From: Streptomyces kanamyceticus
GTDB taxonomy: Bacteria > Actinomycetota > Actinomycetes > Streptomycetales > Streptomycetaceae
Length of the DNA: 64,000 nucleotides
Assembly (NCBI RefSeq): GCF_008704495.1
Contig: NZ_CP023699.1
Coordinates: 9,858,001-9,922,000 of the forward strand
Reading direction: 5' to 3'
The notes beneath the pieces are model-generated. The model was given only the letters and a program-made list of their open reading frames with translations, ran no database searches and was not told the origin of the DNA. Positions 21,626 to 47,618 of the stretch are shown here, piece after piece (position 1 is the first letter of the stretch; every line of letters starts with the position of its first letter). The position numbers and the translations under genes are program-made.

Positions 21626-22543
21626 TCAGGGCGTGGCGACGAGCGGCCGGACGGCTTCCAGCACGTGGCGGCGGAGCCACTGGGAGGCGGGGTCGTCGTC
21701 GAGCCTTCGGTGCCAGCGCAGTTGGACATCGACCGAGGGCAGTTCCAGGGGCACCTCGTGCCACCGCAGCGGCACCTGTCGTTCGACGAGGTGCTCCGCC
21801 ACCATCCGTGGCCCGAGGCAGATGACGTCCCCCTCCAGCGCCATCAGCGCGGCCACGGCGAAGGAGGGGACGACGGCGACGACCCGGCGGGAGCGGCCCA
21901 GGCGCCCCAGCGCCTCGTCGAGCGGCCCGTGCGCGAGACCCCGGCGGGACGCGGAGATGTGCGGGTGGGCGCACAGGTCGTCCACGGTCAGGTGTGCGGC
22001 CTTGCCCAGATCGGAGTGGGCCGACGTCACCGCGACGAAGCGGTCGGAGAACAGCGTCCGGGTGTGCAGGTCGGGCGGGGGCGGGTCGGCGATGCCGATG
22101 TCGAGGTCGAGCGAGCCGTCGCGCAACGGGTCGGGTTCTTTGGAGTCCTGGGGGACGAACCGCAGCCGGACATCGGGTGCCTCGGCGGCGATCCGGTGGG
22201 TGAGGCGCGGCGCGAGAACGGGACTGAGCCCGTCGTTCACGCGGATGGCGAAGGTGCGCCGCCAGGACCGCGGGTCGCTTCCGTCGGGATCCACCCGGAG
22301 TTCGGCCGCGGCATCGAGGAGCGCCTTGACCTTGGCCGCCGACCGCTGGGCGAACGGTGTGGGCACGAGCCCCCGGCCCGCGCGCACCAGGATCTGGTCG
22401 TTCATCGCCCGTCGCAGACGGCCGAGCGCCCTGCTCGTCGCCGGTGTGGAGAGGTGGAGGCGGGCCGCCGCCGCGGAGACGCTGCCGGTGTCCATCAACG
22501 CGTCGAAGACACGCAGCAGATTGAGGTCCAACTGGTCGGGCAC
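21626..22543 (-). CDS. LysR-family transcriptional regulator
   Basis: This 305-residue protein has an N-terminal winged helix (LNLLRVFDALMDTGSVSAAAARLHLSTPATSRALGRLRRAM) and a periplasmic-binding-like effector domain (about residues 95-300). GTG 22543 is preferred because GGAGGG lies seven bases upstream and the protein then starts VPDQLDLNLLRVFDAL, the usual NodD/NocR-like beginning. It is divergent from the quinone oxidoreductase/FAD monooxygenase operon. The 164-bp gap contains GATG-N7-CATC (22589-22603), a possible but weak LysR site. Confidence 0.92.
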   Translation of the reverse strand: MPDQLDLNLLRVFDALMDTGSVSAAAARLHLSTPATSRALGRLRRAMNDQILVRAGRGLVPTPFAQRSAAKVKALLDAAAELRVDPDGSDPRSWRRTFAIRVNDGLSPVLAPRLTHRIAAEAPDVRLRFVPQDSKEPDPLRDGSLDLDIGIADPPPPDLHTRTLFSDRFVAVTSAHSDLGKAAHLTVDDLCAHPHISASRRGLAHGPLDEALGRLGRSRRVVAVVPSFAVAALMALEGDVICLGPRMVAEHLVERQVPLRWHEVPLELPSVDVQLRWHRRLDDDPASQWLRRHVLEAVRPLVATP

Positions 22544-22707
22544 GTACGGTCCCTCCAAGTGCGTCTGACGCAAACACTCTGTGCAAAAGATGCATTAGAC
22601 ATCATGCCAGGAGCGTTCGAGACTGACGTGGTGGCCAACGGCGGGAGGACGGCGACAGCCGATCGCGTTGGCACACACCACCACAACTCGTACGGGAGTG
22701 AACACTC

Positions 22708-23673
22708 ATGGCCAGAATCGTTCGGCCGACCGCGTACGGCACACCCGATGTGCTCGGTGTCTTCGAACTGCGGATTCCGCGACCGGCTTTCGGCGAAGTC
22801 GTCGTCGGCGTCCGTGCCGCAGGGGTCAACCCCATCGACTGGAAGCTCTACAGCGGCACGTTCCACACCGTGGACGACGCGCACAAGGACACGGCAGGTG
22901 TCGCCGCCGACGCCCTGCCCGCACTCGGTCTGGAATGCGCGGGCGTGGTCACGGCGATCGGCGCGGGCGTCACCGGCGTGGAGCTCGGCGACGAAGTGAT
23001 CGTCCATCCCGTCACGGCCGCCTACGCCGACTACGTCACCGCCCCCGTGACCTCGCTGACCCCCAAGCCCGCCACGCTGTCCTGGGAGGAGGCCGCCGGG
23101 CTCATGCTCTCGGGCACCACGGCGGCGCACACCCTGCACGCCGTGAGCCTCGGCCGTGGCGACACCGTGCTCGTGCACGGCGGCTCCGGAGGGGCGGGCC
23201 TGATGGCCGTGCAGCTGGCGACCGCGCGGGGCGCGACGGTGCTCGCCACCGCCGCCGAACGCAATCACGACCTGCTGCGTGAACTGGGCGCCGTCCCGGT
23301 CGTCTACGGTCCCGGCCTGCTGGAGCGCGTACGCGCCGCCGCGCCGGACGGCGTCACCGCCGCCGTGGACTGCGCGGGCACCGACGAAGCGCTCGACGTC
23401 TCCCTGGAACTGGTCGCGGACCGTGCCCGCATCGCCTCCGTCGTCGGCTCCGACCGGCGCGTCACCGCAGGTGTCAAGGTGCTCGGATACGGACCCGGCC
23501 AGGATGCGGGAACCGAGGTCCGGATGGCCGCACGCGCAGGTCTGGCGGCCGGGGCGGGCGCGGGTGAGCTGCGGGTCCTCATCGAGAGCTGCTATCCGTT
23601 GTACGAGGCGGCCCAGGCGCACAAGTCAGGAATCGCCGGGCACGCCCCCGGGAAACTGGTGCTGGTGCCGTGA
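22708..23673 (+). CDS. NADP-dependent quinone oxidoreductase-type MDR enzyme (zinc-free)
   Basis: This 321-residue medium-chain reductase has AAGVNPIDWKLYSG and LECAGVVTAIGAGVTG at the N-terminus and a Rossmann domain with VLVHGGSGGAGLMAVQLA for NADPH. The structural and catalytic zinc cysteines are missing, as in zeta-crystallin/QOR types. It reduces quinones or enones in the cytoplasm. Its TGA overlaps the start of the FAD monooxygenase, so the pair is one transcription unit, divergent from LysR. Together they suggest aromatic/quinone detoxification or tailoring. Confidence 0.92.
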   Translation: MARIVRPTAYGTPDVLGVFELRIPRPAFGEVVVGVRAAGVNPIDWKLYSGTFHTVDDAHKDTAGVAADALPALGLECAGVVTAIGAGVTGVELGDEVIVHPVTAAYADYVTAPVTSLTPKPATLSWEEAAGLMLSGTTAAHTLHAVSLGRGDTVLVHGGSGGAGLMAVQLATARGATVLATAAERNHDLLRELGAVPVVYGPGLLERVRAAAPDGVTAAVDCAGTDEALDVSLELVADRARIASVVGSDRRVTAGVKVLGYGPGQDAGTEVRMAARAGLAAGAGAGELRVLIESCYPLYEAAQAHKSGIAGHAPGKLVLVP

Positions 23674-25184
23674 TGGTCGGCGGACATGGGTGCGTCGATG
23701 TCGCCGTGGTCGGGTGCGGCCCCGTCGGCATGACGCTCGCGGCGCTGCTCGGGAAGGCCGGGCACTCGGTCGTGGTGTTCGAGCGCTACCCCGGTCTGTA
23801 CGGGCTGCCCCGGGCCGCCAGCCTCGACGGCGAGGTCATGCGCGCGTTACAAGGGCTCGGCCTCGCCGACGAGTTGGCGCCCGCGCTGCGACGGCAAGAG
23901 GCGTACGAGTGGCGCAATGGAGCGGGTGAGCTGCTCATCCGGCAGGTGTTCCGGGCCGTTGGCACCAGCGGCTGGGCCGACCTCTACATGTTCCACCAGC
24001 CGGACCTGGAGAAGGCGCTCCACGGGCTGTGCGCGGCGCTGCCGAACGTCGACATCCGGTTCGGCACGAAGGTCACGGGACTGACCCAGGACCGCGATCG
24101 GGTCACACTCGACACGGCGGACGGCACCGGCCTCGCGGCGCGTCACGTGGTCGGGTGCGACGGAGGCAACAGCTTCGTGCGGGCGGCCCTCGACATCGAG
24201 CAGGACGATCTCGGCTTCGCCGAACCCTGGCTGGTCTGCGACTTCGAACTCCGGCGCCCCGCAGCCGAATTGGGGTTGCCGCCGATGCTGCAGATCGGCG
24301 ATCCCGAGGGGCCGACCACCGTCATCACCACCACCGCCGGGCGACAACGGTTCGCCTTCATGCTCGACGAGGGCGACGACGCGGAGCGGGAGCGTACGGC
24401 GGAGCGCGTGTGGTCCCGCGTGGCGCGCCATCTGTCCCGCGACGACGCCGACATCGTCCGTGCCGCCACCTACACGTTCCAGTCGCTGGTCGCGAGGCGG
24501 TGGCGGGACGGCCGTGTGCTGCTCGCGGGCGATGCCGCACACCAGATGCCGCCGTTCCTGGGGCAGGGCATGTGCGCGGGCATACGGGACGTACTCAACA
24601 TCGCCTTCAAGCTGGATCTCGTACGCAGAGGTGTCCAGGGCGCCGATGTGCTCGACACGTATCAGAGCGAGCGGGAGCCGCATGTGCGGGGTGTGACGGA
24701 GCTGAGTGTGGAGCTCGGCCGCGAGCACACGGTGCGGGACCCGGTGCTCGCCCGGGAGCGCGACACCGTGCTGAAGGCCCGTCAGGCCGCGCTCAAGGAG
24801 CCGGAACGGATCCGTCTGCCCGACCTCGGCCCCGGCCTGTTCGCCTCCGGCGGGGGCGGGCTCTCGGTCCAGGGGCGAGTGAGCGACGGCCGAAGGACAG
24901 GACTGCTCGACGAGATCGTCGGCGGGGGTTTCCGCCTCCTGGTCACGGCGGAGGCCCTGCCACTGCTGGACGTCCCCGCGCTCGCAGACCTGGGTGTCAC
25001 GGTCGTCGGCTTCGGCGCCACCGCAGCGGGACGCGTCGTCGCCGACCTGGACGGCACGCACCGCCGCTGGCTGGCCGACCTCGGCGCCACCGCCGCCGCC
25101 GTGCGCCCCGACCACTACGTCTACGCGGCCGGGCCGGACGCGACCGAGGTGGCGGACCGGCTGATGGGGTGTCTGTCGAACTGA
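23673..25184 (+). CDS. FAD-dependent aromatic monooxygenase (MhpA/PheA-like), TTA-containing
   Basis: This protein of about 503 residues has DVAVVGCGPVGMTLAALLGKAGHSVVVFER (FAD Rossmann), the DG motif HVVGCDGGNSFVR and GDAAHQMPPFLGQGMCAGIRDVLN (GD motif), with a thioredoxin-like C-terminal remnant. It belongs to the class A flavoprotein hydroxylases acting on phenolic rings with NAD(P)H and O2. ATG 23673 uses the A of the upstream TGA. GTG 23670 is the alternative. Codon 59 (23847-23849) is TTA, decoded by the bldA tRNA, so translation may be developmentally delayed. Confidence 0.92.
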   Translation: MVGGHGCVDVAVVGCGPVGMTLAALLGKAGHSVVVFERYPGLYGLPRAASLDGEVMRALQGLGLADELAPALRRQEAYEWRNGAGELLIRQVFRAVGTSGWADLYMFHQPDLEKALHGLCAALPNVDIRFGTKVTGLTQDRDRVTLDTADGTGLAARHVVGCDGGNSFVRAALDIEQDDLGFAEPWLVCDFELRRPAAELGLPPMLQIGDPEGPTTVITTTAGRQRFAFMLDEGDDAERERTAERVWSRVARHLSRDDADIVRAATYTFQSLVARRWRDGRVLLAGDAAHQMPPFLGQGMCAGIRDVLNIAFKLDLVRRGVQGADVLDTYQSEREPHVRGVTELSVELGREHTVRDPVLARERDTVLKARQAALKEPERIRLPDLGPGLFASGGGGLSVQGRVSDGRRTGLLDEIVGGGFRLLVTAEALPLLDVPALADLGVTVVGFGATAAGRVVADLDGTHRRWLADLGATAAAVRPDHYVYAAGPDATEVADRLMGCLSN

Positions 25185-25201: not shown

Positions 25202-25741
25202 TCAGGGTCGTTCAACGCCCCTGGCGAGGTCCGGGGTCGCCTCGCCCCGCGCGGCGATCAGCGGTCCAAGGAGTCGCGTGCCGGGACCCACCCGCCCGCC
25301 GGGTCCCGGCAGTTGCGTGGTGTCGGCCACCGTGAGCGGTCCCCGGCACGCCTCGCAGGCCACGACCGGCGCGGTGACGTGCCCGCAGGCGTCGTGGCGG
25401 ATCAGCGCGGGTGGCCCCGCCGGTTCCGCGTACCACTTGTCGCCCCAGGCCATCAGCGCCAGCAGGACGGGGTAGAGCTCCCGGCCTTTCTCCGTGGCCA
25501 CGTACTCCTCGCGCGGCGGGCTGTCCTGGTAGCGCTCACGCGTCAGCACACCCTCCTCGACCAAGCGGGCGAGGCGCGAGGCGAGGATCTTGCGGGACAG
25601 GCCGAGGTCCTCCGCCAGCTCGTCGAAGCGCCGGATGCCGACGAGGACGTCGCGCATGATCAGGGCCGTCCAGGCGTCGCCGAACAGGTCGGTCGCGCGG
25701 GCGATCGAGCACGCGACGCCGGAGAGAGGGGTGCGGGTCAC
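25202..25741 (-). CDS. HxlR-family winged-helix regulator
   Basis: This 179-residue protein has the HxlR DNA-binding domain at residues 10-105 (CSIARATDLFGDAWTALIMRDVLVGIRRFDEL, LSRKILASRLARLVEEGVL), followed by a Cys/His cluster (HDACGHVTAPVVACEAC) that could bind zinc. GTG 25741 starts the conserved domain. It is divergent from the methyltransferase at 25834 across twin palindromes. HxlR proteins commonly respond to reactive electrophiles or quinones. Confidence 0.9.
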   Translation of the reverse strand: MTRTPLSGVACSIARATDLFGDAWTALIMRDVLVGIRRFDELAEDLGLSRKILASRLARLVEEGVLTRERYQDSPPREEYVATEKGRELYPVLLALMAWGDKWYAEPAGPPALIRHDACGHVTAPVVACEACRGPLTVADTTQLPGPGGRVGPGTRLLGPLIAARGEATPDLARGVERP

Positions 25742-25762
25742 TGCTCCAGGGTATCGCCGACG

Positions 25763-25779
25763 GGTTCCCTGAGGGAACC
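25763..25779. promoter_or_regulatory. HxlR operator, site 1
   Basis: GGTTCCCT-G-AGGGAACC is a perfect 17-bp palindrome, 21 bp upstream of the HxlR start codon. It pairs with a near-identical site centred 28 bp away. Confidence 0.8.
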
Positions 25780-25789
25780 TGTCAATGTT

Positions 25790-25808
25790 AGGTTCCTTGA
25801 GGGAACCT
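25790..25808. promoter_or_regulatory. HxlR operator, site 2
   Basis: AGGTTCC-TTGAG-GGAACCT is a 7-bp-arm palindrome sharing its sequence with site 1, and ends 25 bp before the methyltransferase ATG. Two sites in the shared promoter suggest coordinate control of both genes. Confidence 0.8.
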
Positions 25809-25833
25809 GACGTGACCTGACTCGGAGCCCGCC

Positions 25834-26601
25834 ATGACCACCACCCCGCACATCGCAGTCGACTCCGCCGGACCCACGATCGTCGACGGCCGCCACATCC
25901 GGGCCCTGACCTTCCATTCCGTACGTCTTGAGTACCTGGGCCACGTGCTCGCGGAGCTGCGCCACGCACCGGCCGACAGCCGCGCGCTCGTCATCGGCAG
26001 CGGACGCGGCCTGCCCGCACGGGGGCTCGCCCAGCTCGGCTTCGAGGTCGTCGCCGCCGATCCTTCCCCCGCCGCGACGGCCCTCGCCAGGGACACGGAC
26101 GACGGGCTCGGCCTGACGTACGTGACGACGCCCGCTGAGCAACTCGCCCTGCCGGACGCCTCCTTCGACCTCGTCTACTGCGCCGACACCCTCGAAATCA
26201 CCGACCGCCTCGACGCGGTCCTCGCGGAGGCGGCGCGGGTGCTGCGCCCCGGTGGCGCCTTCGTCTACGACACGGTGAACCGCACTCCCGTGTCCCGCCT
26301 CATCTACCTCGGCGCCTTCCAAAGGTTCCCCGGCACCCGGATCATGCCCCGCGACCGCTACGCCGCACACCGGCTGCGCCGCCCCGCGGAGCTCGCCGAG
26401 GCCCTGGACCGGGCCGGTCTCGCCGCGCGAGACGTCTCGGCGTTCAAACCGCGTGACGTACGAAGCCTGGTGCGAGCGACGCGCGGGCGCAGGCGCGGCA
26501 CGGTGACCGACGAGCAACTGCCCGCCCTGGTCGACATGGTGCTCGAACCGGAGGGCAGCCCGGTGGTGACGTATCTGGGGTACGCGGTCCGCCGGATCTG
26601 A
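25834..26601 (+). CDS. Class I SAM-dependent methyltransferase (UbiG/Coq3-like)
   Basis: This 255-residue protein has the SAM-binding series ALVIGSGRGLPARGLAQLGFEVVAADPSP (motif I), FDLVYCADTLEIT (motif II) and AARVLRPGGAFVYDTVNR (motif III). The last, with the following LIYLGAFQRFPGT region, is typical of UbiG-type O-methyltransferases. Motif I has GSGRG where GCGxG is usual. A GGAG site precedes the ATG. It is divergent from HxlR and probably methylates a phenolic or quinol, which would suit the neighbouring LysR-controlled monooxygenase and reductase. Confidence 0.88.
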   Translation: MTTTPHIAVDSAGPTIVDGRHIRALTFHSVRLEYLGHVLAELRHAPADSRALVIGSGRGLPARGLAQLGFEVVAADPSPAATALARDTDDGLGLTYVTTPAEQLALPDASFDLVYCADTLEITDRLDAVLAEAARVLRPGGAFVYDTVNRTPVSRLIYLGAFQRFPGTRIMPRDRYAAHRLRRPAELAEALDRAGLAARDVSAFKPRDVRSLVRATRGRRRGTVTDEQLPALVDMVLEPEGSPVVTYLGYAVRRI

Positions 26602-26634: not shown

Positions 26635-26769
26635 TCCGGGCAGTTCAGGGAGTGTCGCGGCGCGGGCCTGCTCGCGCCCCGGCAGCCCGGCCGCTACGTC
26701 CGGCACACCCTGAATCTGCCCGACGTGACGTCACTGGGCACCGACCTGCTGGCGGCGGTGCTGCGCTGA
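26635..26769 (+). pseudogene. C-terminal remnant of an ArsR-like regulator
   Basis: In one frame ending at TGA 26767-26769 the DNA encodes AGLLAPRQPGRYVRHTLNL then LPDVTSLGTDLLAAVLR. This resembles the wing and last helix of ArsR-family regulators. No start or N-terminal helix-turn-helix is present upstream; the methyltransferase stop lies at 26601. It overlaps the tail of the minus-strand glycosidase gene. I read it as a gene remnant, with moderate doubt because it is so short. Confidence 0.45.
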
Positions 26770-28569
26770 CGACGCCCCGCCCGTGTGAGCGCCGCTCGGA
26801 TAGGCGTCACCGATCCACGCCTCGTCGATCCGTAGCCGCTTGTAGCGGTCCGTGTCCGTCGGCGCCGCATGGGTGTTGAGCACCTCCAGGCGGACATGGC
26901 GCGCCGTGGTCGCCGGGACGTCGATCATCGCGACCCCGCGCCTGCTCGGCAGGGTGCCGGTCTTCACCGGGCTGCCCCAGTGCGTGCCGTCCGCGCTGAC
27001 GTAGACGCGGTAGTCCCGGATGCGCGCCGACTGTTCGGTGTCCGAGCGGGCGTAACTCACCGAGTCCTCACGCTGGTTGACGGCGAGGTACCGCACGCGC
27101 CGCGCCGCGCCGAGGTCGAAGCGCAGGGACACCGGGGTCGCCCGGTCGCTGTCCCAGTAGGTGCGGTGGTCGCCGTCCGCCGCCAGCGCCGCGTCGTGGC
27201 CGCTCGCCGACGCGCTCGCGCTCATCGTGTACGAGGTGGCGGGGATGATGCCCTGGCGGCCCGCGGTGGTGACCTTGAAGACCGTGTCGTACGGATCCCA
27301 GTCGCGCAGGCCCGTCAAGGTCAGCGTGCCGTCGGACTGGCGGTACGAAATGGCCTTCCCCGTGCGGAGGTTGGTGACCGAGGCGACCCGGTAGCCGTTG
27401 TCGTGGACCTTCAGCGTGGACGTCGACGGTGGGGTCAGGACGTGCAGGTAGTGGCGGTCGGGGTCGCTCTTGGCGATGGTCGTCACGCCGTGCGCGCCGT
27501 CGTTCCAGAAGCCGGGCTGCAGGCCCCCGTACAGATAGCCGCCTCCCTCGACGCCGTGCAGGGACTCGCCGACGCGGTCCAGGTAGCCGGAGGCGAAGTC
27601 GTTGAACTCCTCCTGTTTGGAAGGGAATCGCCCGTCTACCATCGGTGTCTCGGCCATGAGCGCCTTCACCGACGAACCGGCGTTGGTGACGAGCCGCCCG
27701 AGCGTGAGCTGCCGGTCCACGTCCGGGTCTGCGCCCGTGTACCACCAGGAGCCGGTGGAGGGCAGCTTGAAGTCCGCCTCGACGAGGCGCGGCGCGGCGG
27801 TGTAGACGGCCTGCGGATAGTCGTAGGCGGGGGACATGCCGGTCTTCTGCTCGTTGCTGACCATGTCCATGATCGGCGTGTCCTCGTTGTTGTTGCTGAG
27901 CGTGTAGTGGGGGCGCTTCTCGTAGATCTTCCGGTAGAGGCCGTGCTGCTCCCAGTACGCGTTGTCGTTGTCGATCCAGAAGCCACCTAGGTCCGGATAG
28001 CGGTCCATGACCTCGAAGAACTGGTCGTACGAGAACTCCCCGAAGCCGTCGCGGGTGCGCAGGTCGACGTCGCGGCCCTTGTGGGCGGAGTAGGCCGCCG
28101 AGTCCAGCCACTCGTGGCCGCCCTCGTCGTGCCACTTCGGGTCGTCGGTCATGTACAGGATCGTCTTGAGCCCCTTGGCCTTCGCGGCCGCGACGAGTTC
28201 GCCCAGGAAGTCCCGTTCGGTCGCGCAACTGCCCGGGATCTTGGACGGCCAGGGTCGCGCGTAGCCGAGCCTGCTGTGGAACGTGGCGAGCACCAGGTAC
28301 TGGGCATGCAGCTTCTGGGCCTCGCGCACCCAGTAGTCGGCGCTCCACCCGCCCGCGGTGACGTCCCGCTCCCAGGCGTCGCAACTGGTGTGGGACGGCG
28401 CGGTGCGCTGTCCCCAGTGCAGGAAGAGGCCCGAGGTGGAGGAGCGCAGGAAGTCCTGGCGGGGGTGGACCACATCGGCCCCGGCAGGCGTCGGCAGGGC
28501 GAGCGCGCCGAGCAGCAGGGCGAACACGGTCGTCAGGATCGCCGGTAAACGGCGTCGCGGCGCGCGCAT
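26731..28569 (-). CDS. Secreted alpha-L-fucosidase-like (GH29) protein with F5/8 type C domain, TTA-containing
   Basis: This 612-residue precursor has a signal peptide (LTTVFALLLGALALPTPAGA), a GH29-like (beta/alpha)8 domain (about residues 38-350; GLFLHWG, LVLATFHSRLG, YPDLGGFWIDNDNAYW with a candidate nucleophile Asp), a beta-sandwich, then a discoidin/F5/8 C galactose-binding-like domain (about 470-600; ARRVRYLAVNQRED, ARHVRLEVLNTH). It should release terminal sugars outside the cell. Codon 8 (28548-28546) is TTA. It is last in the three-gene operon, and its ATG overlaps the preceding TGA (TGATG). Confidence 0.85.
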   Translation of the reverse strand: MRAPRRRLPAILTTVFALLLGALALPTPAGADVVHPRQDFLRSSTSGLFLHWGQRTAPSHTSCDAWERDVTAGGWSADYWVREAQKLHAQYLVLATFHSRLGYARPWPSKIPGSCATERDFLGELVAAAKAKGLKTILYMTDDPKWHDEGGHEWLDSAAYSAHKGRDVDLRTRDGFGEFSYDQFFEVMDRYPDLGGFWIDNDNAYWEQHGLYRKIYEKRPHYTLSNNNEDTPIMDMVSNEQKTGMSPAYDYPQAVYTAAPRLVEADFKLPSTGSWWYTGADPDVDRQLTLGRLVTNAGSSVKALMAETPMVDGRFPSKQEEFNDFASGYLDRVGESLHGVEGGGYLYGGLQPGFWNDGAHGVTTIAKSDPDRHYLHVLTPPSTSTLKVHDNGYRVASVTNLRTGKAISYRQSDGTLTLTGLRDWDPYDTVFKVTTAGRQGIIPATSYTMSASASASGHDAALAADGDHRTYWDSDRATPVSLRFDLGAARRVRYLAVNQREDSVSYARSDTEQSARIRDYRVYVSADGTHWGSPVKTGTLPSRRGVAMIDVPATTARHVRLEVLNTHAAPTDTDRYKRLRIDEAWIGDAYPSGAHTGGASSAQHRRQQVGAQ

Positions 28570-29369
28570 CAGGCGAGTTGGTAGGCGCGCAGGTCGGTCA
28601 GCAGCATGTGACAGTCCTTCAGGGAACCCGAAGTGTCGCCCAGCGAACGGTAGATGCCCCACTTGGGACGCACCCGGTCATCGAGGAACGTGTCGATGCC
28701 CGTCCGCGACTTGTCGACCAACGTCGTGCCGCCGCTCTTGAGGATCCAGCGGATCGAGCCCGACGAACCGTTGCCGATCTTCATCTGGAAGTCGACGTCC
28801 GTCCAGGCGTCGTGCAGCGGCGCGAGAGCGGTACGCCCGATCAGCGTGCCCGAGGTGAACAGCTGCAGTTCGATGGTCTCCACGCCGTCGACCCGCCGCA
28901 GCGACTGCACGACGATCGGCGAACTGCCCTGCCCCGGCTGCTTCATCTGCATGATGTGGGTGAAGGAGGTGGTCGCCTTCAGCGAGCTCGGCAGGAACAT
29001 CTTGTACGTGAGCCGCCAGGTCTGGCCCGGCAGCCAGCGCAGGTACGAGTCGCCCTTGCGGCAGCCCGTGACCTCCTGGCGCTGCCGGTCGGTCGAGGTG
29101 TCGCGATCCACCATGTGCATGTTGAAGCGCCAGTTCTTGCCCTCGGTACGGATGTGCGGCTGGCCCGCCGTGTGCGAGTCGGCCCGGTCGTCCTCGACCG
29201 TCTCCCAGGCGCGCATCCCGTCGCCGCTCGCCGTCGGCGACCAGCGCAACTGCCAACTCGCCGTAGGCGCCGCCGCTCCCGCCGACGTGGCCAGCGCGCT
29301 CGCCGGTAGCGCCGCCGCGGCGGCGCCGCCGAGCGCGGCTCCAAGCACGGTCCTCCTGGACGTGTTCAT
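28569..29369 (-). CDS. Tat-exported polysaccharide-lyase-like jelly-roll protein
   Basis: This 266-residue precursor has a Tat signal (NTSRRTVLGAALGGAAAAAL, cut near ATSA). The mature part is predicted beta-rich: DRQRQEVTGCRKGDSYLRWL, TWRLTYKMFLPSSL, FTHIMQMKQPG, TALAPLHDAWTDVDFQMKIG and VRPKWGIYRSLG. This recalls heparin-lyase-I/glucuronan-lyase-type concanavalin A-like folds. A lyase would leave unsaturated uronyl ends, exactly the substrate type of the upstream GH105 gene. Family assignment is by pattern and is tentative. It overlaps both neighbours by 1-4 bases. Confidence 0.75.
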   Translation of the reverse strand: MNTSRRTVLGAALGGAAAAALPASALATSAGAAAPTASWQLRWSPTASGDGMRAWETVEDDRADSHTAGQPHIRTEGKNWRFNMHMVDRDTSTDRQRQEVTGCRKGDSYLRWLPGQTWRLTYKMFLPSSLKATTSFTHIMQMKQPGQGSSPIVVQSLRRVDGVETIELQLFTSGTLIGRTALAPLHDAWTDVDFQMKIGNGSSGSIRWILKSGGTTLVDKSRTGIDTFLDDRVRPKWGIYRSLGDTSGSLKDCHMLLTDLRAYQLA

Positions 29370-30610
29370 CTGTCCCTGCCTTCCGCTGAGTTGCTTGCCC
29401 TGAGTTGCTCGTTCATGATCAGAAAGGCGCCGAGACCGTGGAAGTCGTTGGTCGCCCGGCCGCGACCGATGTAGTACGCGTAGTCCCCGACGTTGGTGCC
29501 GACGGAGATCTCGGCGAGTTCCGTGCGCCCGTCGCCGTCGAGCGAGACGCGGGCGAGCACACCCGCGTATCCGCGCCTGGCCACGTCCGCGTAATGGGCG
29601 TCGATGTAGCCCTGTTGGGCGCCGCGTGACAGCGCGTAGGTGAACATGCTGGAGCACGACGTCTCGGTCCAGTTGCCGGGACGGGCCCCCTTGTCGATCA
29701 CCTGGAACCAGCGGCCGGTCGCCGGATCCTGGTACCGCTCGAGACCGGCGGCGAGCCGCGTCAGGACGGTCCGGAGCCGCGCACGCCGGGGGTGGTCGGC
29801 CGGGATCGCGTCGAGCACGTTCACCAGTGCCATCGAGTACCAGCCGACGGCCCGGCACCAGGACTCGGGGGCGCGCCCGGTGTCCTTGTCGGCCCAACTC
29901 GCCTCGCGGGACTCGTCGTAGGCGTGCCGCAGGAGCCCGCCGGAAACTTGCAGATGGGTGCCGTACACGGCCAGTTGCTCGGCCGCCTCGTCCTGGGTGT
30001 ACGACGTGTCGCCGAACTCCGCGCCGTACTCGACGAGGAACGGATTGACCATGTAGACGCCGTCGGCCCACAGCTGATGGGCGCGACTGGCCGCTGTGGC
30101 GTGCCAGAAGCCGCCGTCGCCCGTGCGCGGATAGGTCTTGAGGCGGTCGCGGATCTTGTGGGCCGCGATCCGGTAGCGGTCCTGTCCGGTCTCGCGGTGC
30201 AGGATCGTCAGGAGTCGGCCCGCCTGCATGCTGTCCAGGCTGTTGAAGCTCTGGCCGATGGAGCCGTCGGCGCCGACGAAACGGTCCACGTACTCCTTGA
30301 TGAACGTCAAGTACCGCTCGTCGTGCGTGCGTTGATAGGTGAGGTACTGGCCGTAGAGGTAGAGCCCGACCGGGTACGACCAGCCGCCGATGGTGGTGGG
30401 CGTGTAGCGGGCGAGGGTGGAATCGACCATGGAGGCGGACCAGTCGGTGGTGGACCGGTCGGGGGTACTCCCGTTCAGAGATGCGGACACGGTCGTCCCG
30501 GCTCCTGCCTCGGTGCCACCCCCGTAGAGGAGGGCACCGACCAGTGCGCCGGTCATGAGCAGTGCGGATTTCCTTCTCGTGACGTTCATCGTGCCGCTCA
30601 TGAGGTGCAT
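29366..30610 (-). CDS. GH105/GH88 unsaturated glycosyluronyl hydrolase, exported
   Basis: This protein of about 414 residues has an (alpha/alpha)6-barrel: WSYPVGLYLYGQYLTYQRT, IGQSFNSLDSMQAGRLL, HQLWADGVYMVNPFLVEYG (with the likely catalytic Asp) and APESWCRAVGWYSMALVNVLDAIP. The family removes 4,5-unsaturated uronic acid left by polysaccharide lyases. The N-terminus has an RR-containing export signal (VTRRKSALLMTGALVG). Three in-frame ATGs exist (30610, 30601, 30589). 30610 has AAGGCAGG nine bases upstream, while 30589 gives a neater signal peptide. First gene of the operon. Confidence 0.9.
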   Translation of the reverse strand: MHLMSGTMNVTRRKSALLMTGALVGALLYGGGTEAGAGTTVSASLNGSTPDRSTTDWSASMVDSTLARYTPTTIGGWSYPVGLYLYGQYLTYQRTHDERYLTFIKEYVDRFVGADGSIGQSFNSLDSMQAGRLLTILHRETGQDRYRIAAHKIRDRLKTYPRTGDGGFWHATAASRAHQLWADGVYMVNPFLVEYGAEFGDTSYTQDEAAEQLAVYGTHLQVSGGLLRHAYDESREASWADKDTGRAPESWCRAVGWYSMALVNVLDAIPADHPRRARLRTVLTRLAAGLERYQDPATGRWFQVIDKGARPGNWTETSCSSMFTYALSRGAQQGYIDAHYADVARRGYAGVLARVSLDGDGRTELAEISVGTNVGDYAYYIGRGRATNDFHGLGAFLIMNEQLRASNSAEGRDR

Positions 30611-30854: not shown

Positions 30855-31265
30855 ATGGACATCACCATTCACACGACCGTCCTCCCGCACGACGACCCGG
30901 ACGCGTCCCTCGCCTTCTACCGGGACGTCCTCGGCTTCGAGGTCCGCAGCGACGTCGGACAGGGCAGGATGCGCTGGATAACGGTCGGTCCCGTCGGTCA
31001 GGTCGGCACGTCCATCCTCCTGGCGCCACCGGCCGCCGACCCCGGGATCACCGAGGACGAACGCCGCACCATCGCCGAGATGATGGCCAAGGGCACCTAC
31101 GGCTGGATCCTCCTCGCCACCCATGACCTCGACGGCGTGTTCGAGAAGGTCAGCGCGGGCGACGCCGAGATCGTCCAGGAACCGACCGATCAGCCGTACG
31201 GCATCCGGGACTGCGCCTTCCGCGACCCCGCGGGCAACATGGTCCGCATCCAGGAAGTCGGCTGA
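30855..31265 (+). CDS. VOC-family (glyoxalase-like) protein
   Basis: This 136-residue protein has two beta-alpha-beta-beta-beta halves: HTTVLPHDDPDASLAFYRDVLGFEVRSDVG and GVFEKVSAGDAEIVQEPTDQPYGIRDCAFRDPAGNMVRIQE. The late D-P-x-G-N and a Glu in the last strand are typical metal-binding positions. VOC proteins act as small metalloenzymes or binding/resistance proteins. It is followed after 36 bp by an AraC-type regulator and a second VOC gene, all co-oriented. Confidence 0.9.
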   Translation: MDITIHTTVLPHDDPDASLAFYRDVLGFEVRSDVGQGRMRWITVGPVGQVGTSILLAPPAADPGITEDERRTIAEMMAKGTYGWILLATHDLDGVFEKVSAGDAEIVQEPTDQPYGIRDCAFRDPAGNMVRIQEVG

Positions 31266-31301: not shown

Positions 31302-31739
31302 ATGTGCCAACCCTCGTGGGGCCGCGCTCGCGTCGAGGCGCAGCGCCTGAGCGACCTCGCGCGGCTGCGTCGCGTGCGTGACCGGATCGACCGGGAGTAC
31401 GGGCGGCCGCTGGACATCGAGGTGCTCGCCCGCGCCGCGAACCTGCCCGCCGCACCCCTCGGCCGCCAGTTCCTGCTGGCCTACGGCCTGGCCCCGTACG
31501 CGTACCTGATGACACGTCGTATCGAACACGCGACGGCCCTGCTGCGCCGCGGGGACCTGAGCGTCGCCGAGGTCTGCTCGGCCGTCGGCGGCCCGTCCCT
31601 CGACACGTTCAGGACCTGCTTCACGGAACGGGTCGGTGTGTCGCCGGACGTCTACCGGCAGCGCGCGATCGGCGCCGCGGCCGACGTCCCATCGGTCAGG
31701 AATGGAGAAGCACCCCTCACAGGCCCGCGCCTAGCGTGA
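31302..31739 (+). CDS. AraC-family helix-turn-helix regulator (DNA-binding domain only)
   Basis: This 145-residue protein is little more than the two AraC helix-turn-helices: RIDREYGRPLDIEVLARAANLPAAPLGRQF and LLRRGDLSVAEVCSAVGGPSLDTFRTCFTERVGVSPDVYRQR. There is no separate ligand domain. AAGGAG seven bases upstream supports the ATG. Its TGA overlaps the next VOC start (TGATG). It likely controls the flanking VOC genes. Confidence 0.9.
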   Translation: MCQPSWGRARVEAQRLSDLARLRRVRDRIDREYGRPLDIEVLARAANLPAAPLGRQFLLAYGLAPYAYLMTRRIEHATALLRRGDLSVAEVCSAVGGPSLDTFRTCFTERVGVSPDVYRQRAIGAAADVPSVRNGEAPLTGPRLA

Positions 31740-32471: not shown

Positions 32472-33245
32472 TCAGAACAAGCGGGGCTGGCCGCTGGAAG
32501 CCCGGAGGCCGCCGTCCACCGGAATGTGGGCGCCATTGACGAAACTCGCGTCCGCGCTGGCCAAGAAGGCGATGACGGCGGCGACTTCGGCCGGTTCCGC
32601 GGGGCGCTCCATGGGGATCCGCTGCTGGAACGCCGCGAGGATCTCCTCGTTCTCCACGACGGGGGCGGCCACGGGGGTGCGGGTCAGGCTCGGGTGCACG
32701 GCGTTGACCCGGACGCCCTCGCGGGCGTGGTCGAGCGCCATCGCGTTGGTCAGGTTGACCAGGGCCCCCTTGGCGCTGTTGTACGCGGCCATGCCCCAGT
32801 CCGCGCCGAGTCCGGACACCGAGCCGACGTTGACGATGCAGCCGCCGACCCGACGCAGGTGGGGGAGCGCGGCACGCGAGGCGAAGAAGACGCCGTCGAT
32901 GTCGGCGGCGAAGACCTGGCGCCAGGACGCCGTGTCGAGCTGCTCGACGGTTCCGGGAACCGCGATGGCGGCGTTGTTGACCAGGACGTCCAGGCGGCCG
33001 AACTCCTCGGCCACATCGGCGATCAGCGTGCCGATCGCGGTCTCGTCCGCGACGTCCGCGACGCGCGGGACGACGGTCGAACCGGCGGGTGCCTGCCCGG
33101 CGGCGTGCTTCAGTTTGGCCTCGGACCGACCGACGGAGATCACCGTCGCGCCTTCCCGCCCGAACCGGTCCACGGTCGCGGCACCGATACCGGACCCGCC
33201 GCCGGTGACCACGACGACGCGATCGGCGAATCTGCTCTCGCTCAT
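32472..33245 (-). CDS. Short-chain dehydrogenase/reductase (SDR)
   Basis: This 257-residue classical SDR has the cofactor motif VTGGGSGIGAATVDRFG, NNAAIAVPG, and the catalytic triad Ser in GSVSG (142-144), Tyr155 and Lys159 (YNSAK). The Arg at the end of beta-2 (SVGRSEAK) suggests NADP preference. The C-terminus IPVDGGLRASSG is standard. It oxidises or reduces an alcohol/carbonyl substrate not identifiable here. It is divergent from the SMI1-like gene. Confidence 0.93.
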   Translation of the reverse strand: MSESRFADRVVVVTGGGSGIGAATVDRFGREGATVISVGRSEAKLKHAAGQAPAGSTVVPRVADVADETAIGTLIADVAEEFGRLDVLVNNAAIAVPGTVEQLDTASWRQVFAADIDGVFFASRAALPHLRRVGGCIVNVGSVSGLGADWGMAAYNSAKGALVNLTNAMALDHAREGVRVNAVHPSLTRTPVAAPVVENEEILAAFQQRIPMERPAEPAEVAAVIAFLASADASFVNGAHIPVDGGLRASSGQPRLF

Positions 33246-46481: not shown

Positions 46482-47618
46482 CTACGCCCGATCGATGCGG
46501 TAGACGCTGCCGCCGATGTCGAGGGCGTAGAGCTCGCGATTGCCGCCCTGGACGAACGAGATGACCTCGCCGCCGTTGACTCCGAGGTCGTGCGTGCCGG
46601 TCACCTTCCCGTCCTTGATCTCCAGCGAGCGGATGGTGCCGTCGCAGTAGTCGCTGTACACGTACTGGCCCCTGAGGGCCGGGATCGCCTTGCCCCGGTA
46701 GACGAATCCGCCGGTCACCGAGCAGCCGAGGCCGGTGCGGTCGTACTCGTGGACCGGTGGCACGTGGTTCGCGGGTTCGGTGCCCTCGCGGAAGGGGTGG
46801 TTGCCCTCCATCTGGGACCAGCCGTAGTTCTCGCCGCCCTCGCTCTTGGCGGGAGCCCAGTCGATCTCCTCCCAGGCACTCTGGCCGACGTCACCGATCA
46901 GCAGGTCGCCCGTGCCCGCGTCGAAGGAGAACCGCCACGGGTTGCGCAGCCCGTAGGCCCAGATCTCGTCCTTCGCCTTCGGGTCGTCCACGAACGGATT
47001 GTCCTGGGGGATCGCGTACGGCTTGCCGCCGTGCGGGTCGATCCGAAGCAGCTTGCCGAGCAGCGTGTCGAGGTTCTGTCCGTTGCCGTGCGGGTCGCCG
47101 CCCGAGCCGCCGTCGCCGAGGGCGATGTAGAGGTAGCCGTCGGGGCCGAACTTGATGTCGCCGCCGTTGTGGTTCGAGTACGGCTGGGTCTGGGTGATGA
47201 CGGTGCGCCGGGTCTCCGGCCGGATCTTGCCGTGCCGTACGGCGAACTCGTCGACGGTGCTGGTGCCTTCGAGGTTCGTGAACGAGATGTAGAAGTGCGC
47301 GAACTTCTTGTCGAACGCGATGCCCAGCAGGCCGCGTTCGCCGTCGGTGGTGGTCTCGGCGGAGATGTCGAGCACGGGCGCGCTGAGTGCACCCCGGTCC
47401 AAGACCCTTACGGTTCCCGCGCGTTCGGCGATCCAGACCGTTCCGCCCGGGCCTGCCGCGCCCGCGGTCGGGTTCTTGGCCGTGGTCACCTTCGTCAGTG
47501 CGACCTTGGCGGCCTGACGCGGGGCCGCGGACTCGTCCGCGGACGCCGTGGTGAGGGCGAGGGACGCGATGAGGCAGAGGGTGCCGATGATCGCCGAGCT
47601 TCTGGTGCGAACTTTCAC
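46482..47618 (-). CDS. Secreted PQQ-dependent glucose/sorbosone dehydrogenase-like protein
   Basis: This 378-residue precursor has a signal peptide (IIGTLCLIASLALTTASA) and a six-bladed propeller of the GSDH family: VWIAERAGTVRVL, GERGLLGIAFDKKFAHFYISF, YSNHNGGDIKFGPDGYLYIALGDGG, DEIWAYGLRNPWRFSFD and GLGCSVTGGFVYRG. The His in NHNGG and the Arg/Asn set are the usual PQQ/calcium site. It would oxidise aldoses outside the cell. GTG 47618 has AGGAGG at ideal spacing. Confidence 0.92.
   Translation of the reverse strand: MKVRTRSSAIIGTLCLIASLALTTASADESAAPRQAAKVALTKVTTAKNPTAGAAGPGGTVWIAERAGTVRVLDRGALSAPVLDISAETTTDGERGLLGIAFDKKFAHFYISFTNLEGTSTVDEFAVRHGKIRPETRRTVITQTQPYSNHNGGDIKFGPDGYLYIALGDGGSGGDPHGNGQNLDTLLGKLLRIDPHGGKPYAIPQDNPFVDDPKAKDEIWAYGLRNPWRFSFDAGTGDLLIGDVGQSAWEEIDWAPAKSEGGENYGWSQMEGNHPFREGTEPANHVPPVHEYDRTGLGCSVTGGFVYRGKAIPALRGQYVYSDYCDGTIRSLEIKDGKVTGTHDLGVNGGEVISFVQGGNRELYALDIGGSVYRIDRA

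Follow-up and report, generated by a model that had tools for sequence, protein, structure and literature searches.

Introduction

YteR of Bacillus subtilis is an unsaturated rhamnogalacturonyl hydrolase and has a PL11 lyase as its partner. PL13 heparin lyases use a His/Tyr catalytic pair, and the acid/base residue of GH29 enzymes varies within the family. In Gram-positive polysaccharide utilisation loci, a transporter and a regulator lie beside the enzymes. Related in theme are the Cip1-like proteins (PMC3764139) and a PL31 from Streptomyces that carries a glucuronan lyase annotation (PMC8371330). Here we analyse three overlapping genes of Streptomyces kanamyceticus (the trio), encoding a GH105, a lyase-like and a GH29-like protein, in a window of 64,000 nucleotides (the whole stretch of DNA under analysis, 9.858-9.922 Mb of the 10.13-Mb single-contig genome). 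Their closest named homologues also come from Streptomyces. Leaving the substrate aside, we hold with moderate confidence that the trio encodes secreted enzymes that act together on a polyuronide, that its genes are coupled in translation, and that it belongs to a larger cluster.

Three overlapping genes and their predicted products

Translation of each open reading frame (ORF) places the genes on the minus strand in the order GH105, lyase-like, GH29-like, with the following features.

29366..30610, minus strand: GH105 (YteR-like) unsaturated-uronyl hydrolase, 414 aa, N-terminal export signal (PF07470 and YteR matches)
28569..29369, minus strand: Tat-type secreted jelly-roll polysaccharide-lyase-like protein, 266 aa
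28644..29090, minus strand: candidate active-site motifs of the lyase-like protein from residue conservation, DRQRQE (29073-29090), FTHIMQMKQ (28938-28964) and RPKWGIYRS (28644-28670)
26731..28569, minus strand: GH29-like alpha-L-fucosidase-type protein, signal peptide, 612 aa
27541..28461, minus strand: GH29-like catalytic stretch (alignment to 9eu4)
26869..27222, minus strand: C-terminal F5/8 type C (CBM32-like) domain (PF00754)
29366..29369, minus strand: ATGA, 4 bp shared by the GH105 stop and the lyase start (sequence and translations)
28569..28569, minus strand: TGATG, 1 bp shared by the lyase stop and the GH29-like start (sequence)

The first-pass annotation, made from the sequence alone, had described three genes overlapping by 1-4 bp, and both junctions are read directly in the sequence. 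The identities that it gave (GH105, a Tat-type lyase-like protein, and a GH29-like protein with an F5/8 C domain) agree with Pfam, which gives PF07470 for the first and PF01120 with PF00754 for the third; for the second, the matches to PF14099 and TAT_signal fall under the cut-off. A longer ORF starting at 28662 was set aside for the third gene; the ATG at 28569 is most likely the start because of its overlap with the lyase stop and the signal peptide.

The GH105 protein belongs to its family by a wide score (PF07470, E 2.1e-86, 290.5 bits against a curated cut-off of 26.6) and matches YteR (1nc5) at 7.1e-74. Asp126 (codon 30233-30235) and Asp183 (30062-30064) align with YteR residues 88 and 143, which we take to be the catalytic Asp pair; the alignment took in chain 2gh4, which has N at 143. 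The protein is like YteR in sequence and at both catalytic Asp positions, but it carries an export signal, and its neighbouring lyase is a jelly roll rather than a PL11. Family membership and the conserved aspartates suggest that it would remove 4,5-unsaturated uronyl ends. At E 1e-3 it is the only PF07470 match in its own genome.

For the middle protein, Pfam returned PF14099 (Polysacc_lyase) at E 6e-06, but the 26.7 bits fall under the curated cut-off of 29.9; TAT_signal scores 16.1 bits, below its cut-off of 22.7. Precomputed PF14099 assignments are present on 115 of 120 homologues listed and, in another listing, on fewer than half of 120 listed. The modelled fold is the jelly roll of the PL20 glucuronan lyases, with PL20 first and PL13 also at the top of the VIA-align ranking, and further fold matches are to PL7, PL14, PL18 and PL36. 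Identity is about 15% to PL13 heparin lyase I, a protein of about 370 residues as against 266, and 12% to one of the known systems likened to it. D94, R95, R97, E99, H138, Q141, K143, K236, Y240 and R241 are invariant in all 68 aligned lyase-like sequences. Fold and invariant residues together point to a lyase function. The protein could instead be a binding protein or a hydrolase of concanavalin-like fold, with the GH105 acting on oligosaccharides released by other lyases. We give this little weight, as the R/E, H/Q/K and K-x-x-x-Y-R positions do not vary across the 68 sequences and lyases head the fold ranking. PDB searches by sequence, also with lyase profiles, found no relative with a solved structure, and the protein stands for a candidate lyase family. 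A plasmid search with the lyase gave no match; one lyase homologue is named as plasmid-borne.

The third protein matches PF01120 (Alpha_L_fucos, 2.5e-12, above the cut-off) and PF00754 (1.6e-14), and has a fucosidase fold, as expected of GH29. Asp200, present in 38 of 38 aligned sequences, aligns with the WfD nucleophile position of GH29 (9eu4). Compared with GH29 alpha-L-fucosidases (AlfB; 9eu4), identity is 16-19%, and the C-terminal CBM32-like domain is an addition; in the model, pLDDT is < 50 for residues 228-279 and 295-311. It may release an alpha-linked L-fucose-type side sugar, judging by alignment and model. Among homologues of the GH29-like protein (P0251-P0259, P0289, P0291, P0292, P0316), many have an additional CBM6/CBM35 domain, and others are fused to GH28.

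Linkage across congeneric genomes

We searched 392 congeneric genomes, taking GH105 and GH29-like matches at 1e-40 and lyase matches at E 1e-3. The lyase matched in 88 genomes, from which five with only N-terminal or short weak matches (E > 1e-4) were dropped; the remaining 83, about one in five congeners, still contain some with fragments only. Matches to the GH29-like protein occur in 54 genomes and to GH105 in 52. The linkage counts exclude one GH29-like fragment (G150:C730). GH105 and the GH29-like protein occur together in 47 genomes, GH105 alone in 5, the GH29-like protein alone in 7 and neither in 333 (Fisher p 2.5e-47, relatedness uncorrected). For GH105 and the lyase the corresponding figures are 44, 8, 39 and 301 (Fisher p 5.5e-27, relatedness uncorrected).

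The genes are also close neighbours. The lyase lies within 3 kb of GH105 in 40 of 52 GH105 loci, and within 60 bp in 35. A GH29-like gene is found within 6 kb of GH105 in 41 of these loci; both partners are near in 34 and neither in 5. Seen from the GH29-like gene, the lyase is within 5 kb at 37 of 45 loci with at least 66% identity (38/62 overall).

A larger cluster with pqq genes in relatives

Scanning named genomes with the lyase yielded 127 relatives, from which the best 80 loci were kept, 66 of them longer than 20 kb. With a 25% coverage filter, these loci contain GH105 (45), GH28 (35), the GH29-like gene (36), GH27 (33), a GH18 domain (26), GH75 (35), a GSDH-family sugar dehydrogenase (43), and the pyrroloquinoline quinone (PQQ) biosynthesis genes for PqqB (12), PqqC (23) and PqqE (24). 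The site is flanked by an aldo/keto reductase (AKR) in 63 of the 80 and by an acyl-CoA-synthetase-like gene (ACS) in 60. Scores exceed the NCBIfam equivalog cut-offs for PqqB (L098, L113), PqqC (L068, L113) and PqqE (L031, L113). In locus L099, GH105 is followed by the lyase, a GH28/GH29-like/F5-8C fusion, GH27 ending in a GH18-like tail, and a CBM6/35-fn3-GSDH protein. Pfam returned nothing for the GH18-like domain, but its copy in the S. kanamyceticus genome matches Exochitinase 1 (9buf) at 7.3e-48.

The evidence that we weigh most for the larger cluster is its rearranged conservation in two divergent genomes. With a lyase about 40% identical, these have PqqB/C/E, GSDH, GH105 and the GH29-like gene around the lyase in another order, one with GH28 and the other with GH27. 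Because relatives carry the trio in this larger cluster, we rejected the view that an operon of just these three genes is the natural unit. The trio is real, conserved and functionally coherent, and the unit is wider than the first-pass annotation had it; its mechanism and substrate we infer. In the divergent form (L112, L113), the genes beyond GH105 encode an FAD-dependent oxidoreductase and an MFS sugar transporter.

The soluble PQQ sugar dehydrogenases and AA12 share the GSDH family with the dehydrogenases of the relatives' cluster and of the S. kanamyceticus genome (nearest 3das, 4.8e-85). The cluster enzyme differs from them in being encoded among polysaccharide-degrading genes and pqqB/C/E. 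A further GSDH-family sugar dehydrogenase (46482-47618, minus strand) lies in the window 16 kb from the trio, with about 32% identity to the cluster GSDH over 186 residues.

GH75 as a neighbour was considered as strong evidence and then downgraded. It is widespread (245/392 genomes), so its nearness is partly background; it is found in 69 of 83 lyase genomes and 176 of 309 others (odds ratio 3.7, relatedness uncorrected). For the closer GH75 subtype, the lyase is present in 37 of at least 83 genomes among the matches listed.

A split cluster in S. kanamyceticus

In S. kanamyceticus itself, the remainder of the cluster (L125; G000:C1:1472000-1491000, 1.47-1.49 Mb) consists of AKR, pqqB/C/E, the GH18-like domain, a GSDH without CBM, and ACS. 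GH105, lyase and GH29-like gene have no match at this site; all three are in the window, 8.4 Mb away on the chromosome. The GSDH at the remainder groups with six S. flavofungini-type loci (support 99/96), whose GH105 proteins form a clade (96/86) that excludes the window GH105, the placement of which lacks resolution. With the S. flavofungini type, the window GH105 shares 71-75% identity and the GSDH 81-86%; with the S. olivochromogenes type, the values are 80-82% and 74-76%. The window lyase separates the two types poorly (71-76% and 75-80%), and S. flavofungini-type loci lack a counterpart of the GH29-like gene. The two locus groups were picked after the best matches were known, and the comparison is one of tree placement. 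Because GH105 and GSDH differ in tree placement and identities, the trio probably arrived separately from the rest of the cluster. A simple translocation of native genes is less likely given the tree placement.

The same separation lends itself to a plainer account, in which ordinary enzymes acting on the sugars of a plant gum or a bacterial exopolysaccharide were gained on a chromosome arm with no functional tie to pqq, and the clusters of relatives stem from a common integration site. The 8.4 Mb and the discordant trees fit it, as do 11 loci in which AKR and ACS flank the lyase alone among the genes sought. Against it, the pqqE and GH105 ORFs share 4 bp in L031, 23 of 24 pqqE loci also have GH105, and a similar gene set is reordered in the two divergent genomes, where the stretches fetched hold no AKR or ACS match. 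We consider this account improbable.

Proposed mechanism and candidate substrates

In our working model of the polyuronide-degrading module, the lyase would cleave a 4-linked uronic acid chain by beta-elimination, giving 4,5-unsaturated uronyl ends; the GH105 would take these off; and the CBM32-bearing GH29-like protein would free an alpha-linked L-fucose-type side sugar. Freed sugars, possibly L-fucose, may then be oxidised extracellularly by the cluster dehydrogenase. The first-pass annotation had proposed the same order of lyase, GH105 and side-sugar removal. Fold, conserved residues and linkage are consistent with that pathway, but it leaves out the larger cluster, and the lyase is not obligatory.

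A fucosylated glucuronan such as a Mucoromycota glycuronan or exopolysaccharide is a possible, tentative substrate. The points for it are PL20 as the top VIA-align fold, the fucosidase-type partner, and GH27, a chitinase-like domain and GSDH in the cluster. In the excerpts of two sources, Mucorales glycuronan has fucose, mannose, galactose and glucuronic acid at 5:1:1:6, the exopolysaccharide is essentially beta-1,4-linked glucuronic acid with 9-25% fucose, and the wall contains chitin and chitosan (PMC6433966; PMC10481521). The Trichoderma reesei AA12 prefers L-fucose, with weak activity, as excerpted from PMC6881810. A wider picture, which we regard as rather doubtful, is a system that attacks the walls and slime of Mucoromycota by elimination, hydrolysis and oxidation together, with the window holding its detached polyuronide module. 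Here a new jelly-roll lyase family would open the fucosylated glucuronan, GH105 and GH29 would strip the polymer, and chitin and chitosan would be degraded by GH18 and perhaps GH75. A secreted PQQ dehydrogenase with its cofactor from the same cluster would oxidise the freed L-fucose outside the cell.

Rhamnogalacturonan-type pectin is an unlikely substrate. The middle protein would then be a new jelly-roll rhamnogalacturonan lyase, with GH105 cutting unsaturated galacturonic acid from rhamnose and GH29/GH27 trimming the side chains of rhamnogalacturonan I. The GH105 is nearest to YteR, the GH28 of the 35 relatives' loci is nearest to the BT4146 rhamnogalacturonidase model (though below the model cut-off), and the L099 fusion joins GH28 to the GH29-like protein. 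However, searches of the S. kanamyceticus genome gave no match for GH28, PL1 or PL11, with controls matching in each search, and pectin is therefore weakened for this strain; PL3 absence was discarded as uninformative because no control matched. The GH18 chitinase-like domain as a member in 26 of 80 loci also speaks against pectin, and we know of no rhamnogalacturonan lyase of this jelly-roll fold. The targets named in the first-pass annotation (rhamnogalacturonan, glucuronan or a bacterial exopolysaccharide) all stay as candidates, with pectin reduced. Failing these two, our guess would be another exopolysaccharide or a plant gum.

Several results weigh against a fixed trio or against the fungal substrate. 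A GH105 match is lacking in 39 of the 83 lyase genomes, and in 6 of the 392 genomes GH105 lies within 2 kb of the GH29-like gene with no lyase found; the lyase is therefore not obligatory. Mucoran itself is alpha-GlcA-(1-3)-Man in the excerpt of PMC6433966, and we have held down the odds of a glucuronan because of it; no mannose-acting enzyme was identified. The L099 GSDH scores 145.7 bits against the 434.55 cut-off of the NCBI PQQ-dehydrogenase subfamily model, which sets it apart from the soluble PQQ sugar dehydrogenases. Because of this score, PQQ is its putative cofactor, and the fungal-wall oxidative picture is held down. For the lysis of Mucor ramannianus walls by a Streptomyces, the subject of a 1968 paper, the same review (PMC6433966) credits beta-glucanase.

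The first-pass annotation had raised the possibility of an undescribed degradation system. The enzymes are members of known families or similar to them; what is new is the way they are grouped with pqq genes and a dehydrogenase of the GSDH family. No paper describing the cluster was recognised by title and abstract opening among the matches listed from the open PMC literature, subscription papers being mostly outside this scope. Likewise, the literature matches listed (best 20 of 823 in one listing) name no bacterial degradation locus for zygomycete polyuronides. The enzyme set is testable for such polymers, and the tie of pqq genes and a GSDH-family sugar dehydrogenase to polysaccharide degradation is unusual in Streptomyces.

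Surroundings of the trio

The genes around the trio are as follows.

21626-25184: LysR regulator, divergent zinc-type alcohol dehydrogenase and FAD-binding enzyme gene; apparently without relation to the trio
25202-25969, minus strand: HxlR-type regulator, about 0.8 kb past the trio end, methyltransferase in between, non-adjoining
25834-26601, plus strand: methyltransferase gene, between the trio end and the HxlR-type gene
30855-31265: glyoxalase gene, upstream of the trio
31302-31739, plus strand: AraC-type helix-turn-helix gene, upstream within about 1 kb, glyoxalase gene in between, non-adjoining
32472-33245: SDR gene, upstream of the trio

No transporter is present among the trio neighbours scanned in the window, and no regulator directly adjoins the trio. 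The first-pass annotation's statement that neither is attached holds for adjoining genes, but the HxlR-type and AraC-type genes lie within about 1 kb, each behind one other gene. A promoter/terminator scan, which was not built for Streptomyces promoters, gave no promoter-like site and two terminator-like sites, both on the plus strand and none on the operon strand.

Two further observations concern relatives. Three of the six genomes without a lyase match (L126, L127 and L128) have GH105 next to the GH29-like gene, with GH28 between them in L128, and all three contain GSDH. At L060:11612-14533, a branched-chain-amino-acid-type ABC transporter lies between the lone lyase and the ACS-like gene, and the same ORF cluster occurs in L072, L076 and L089.
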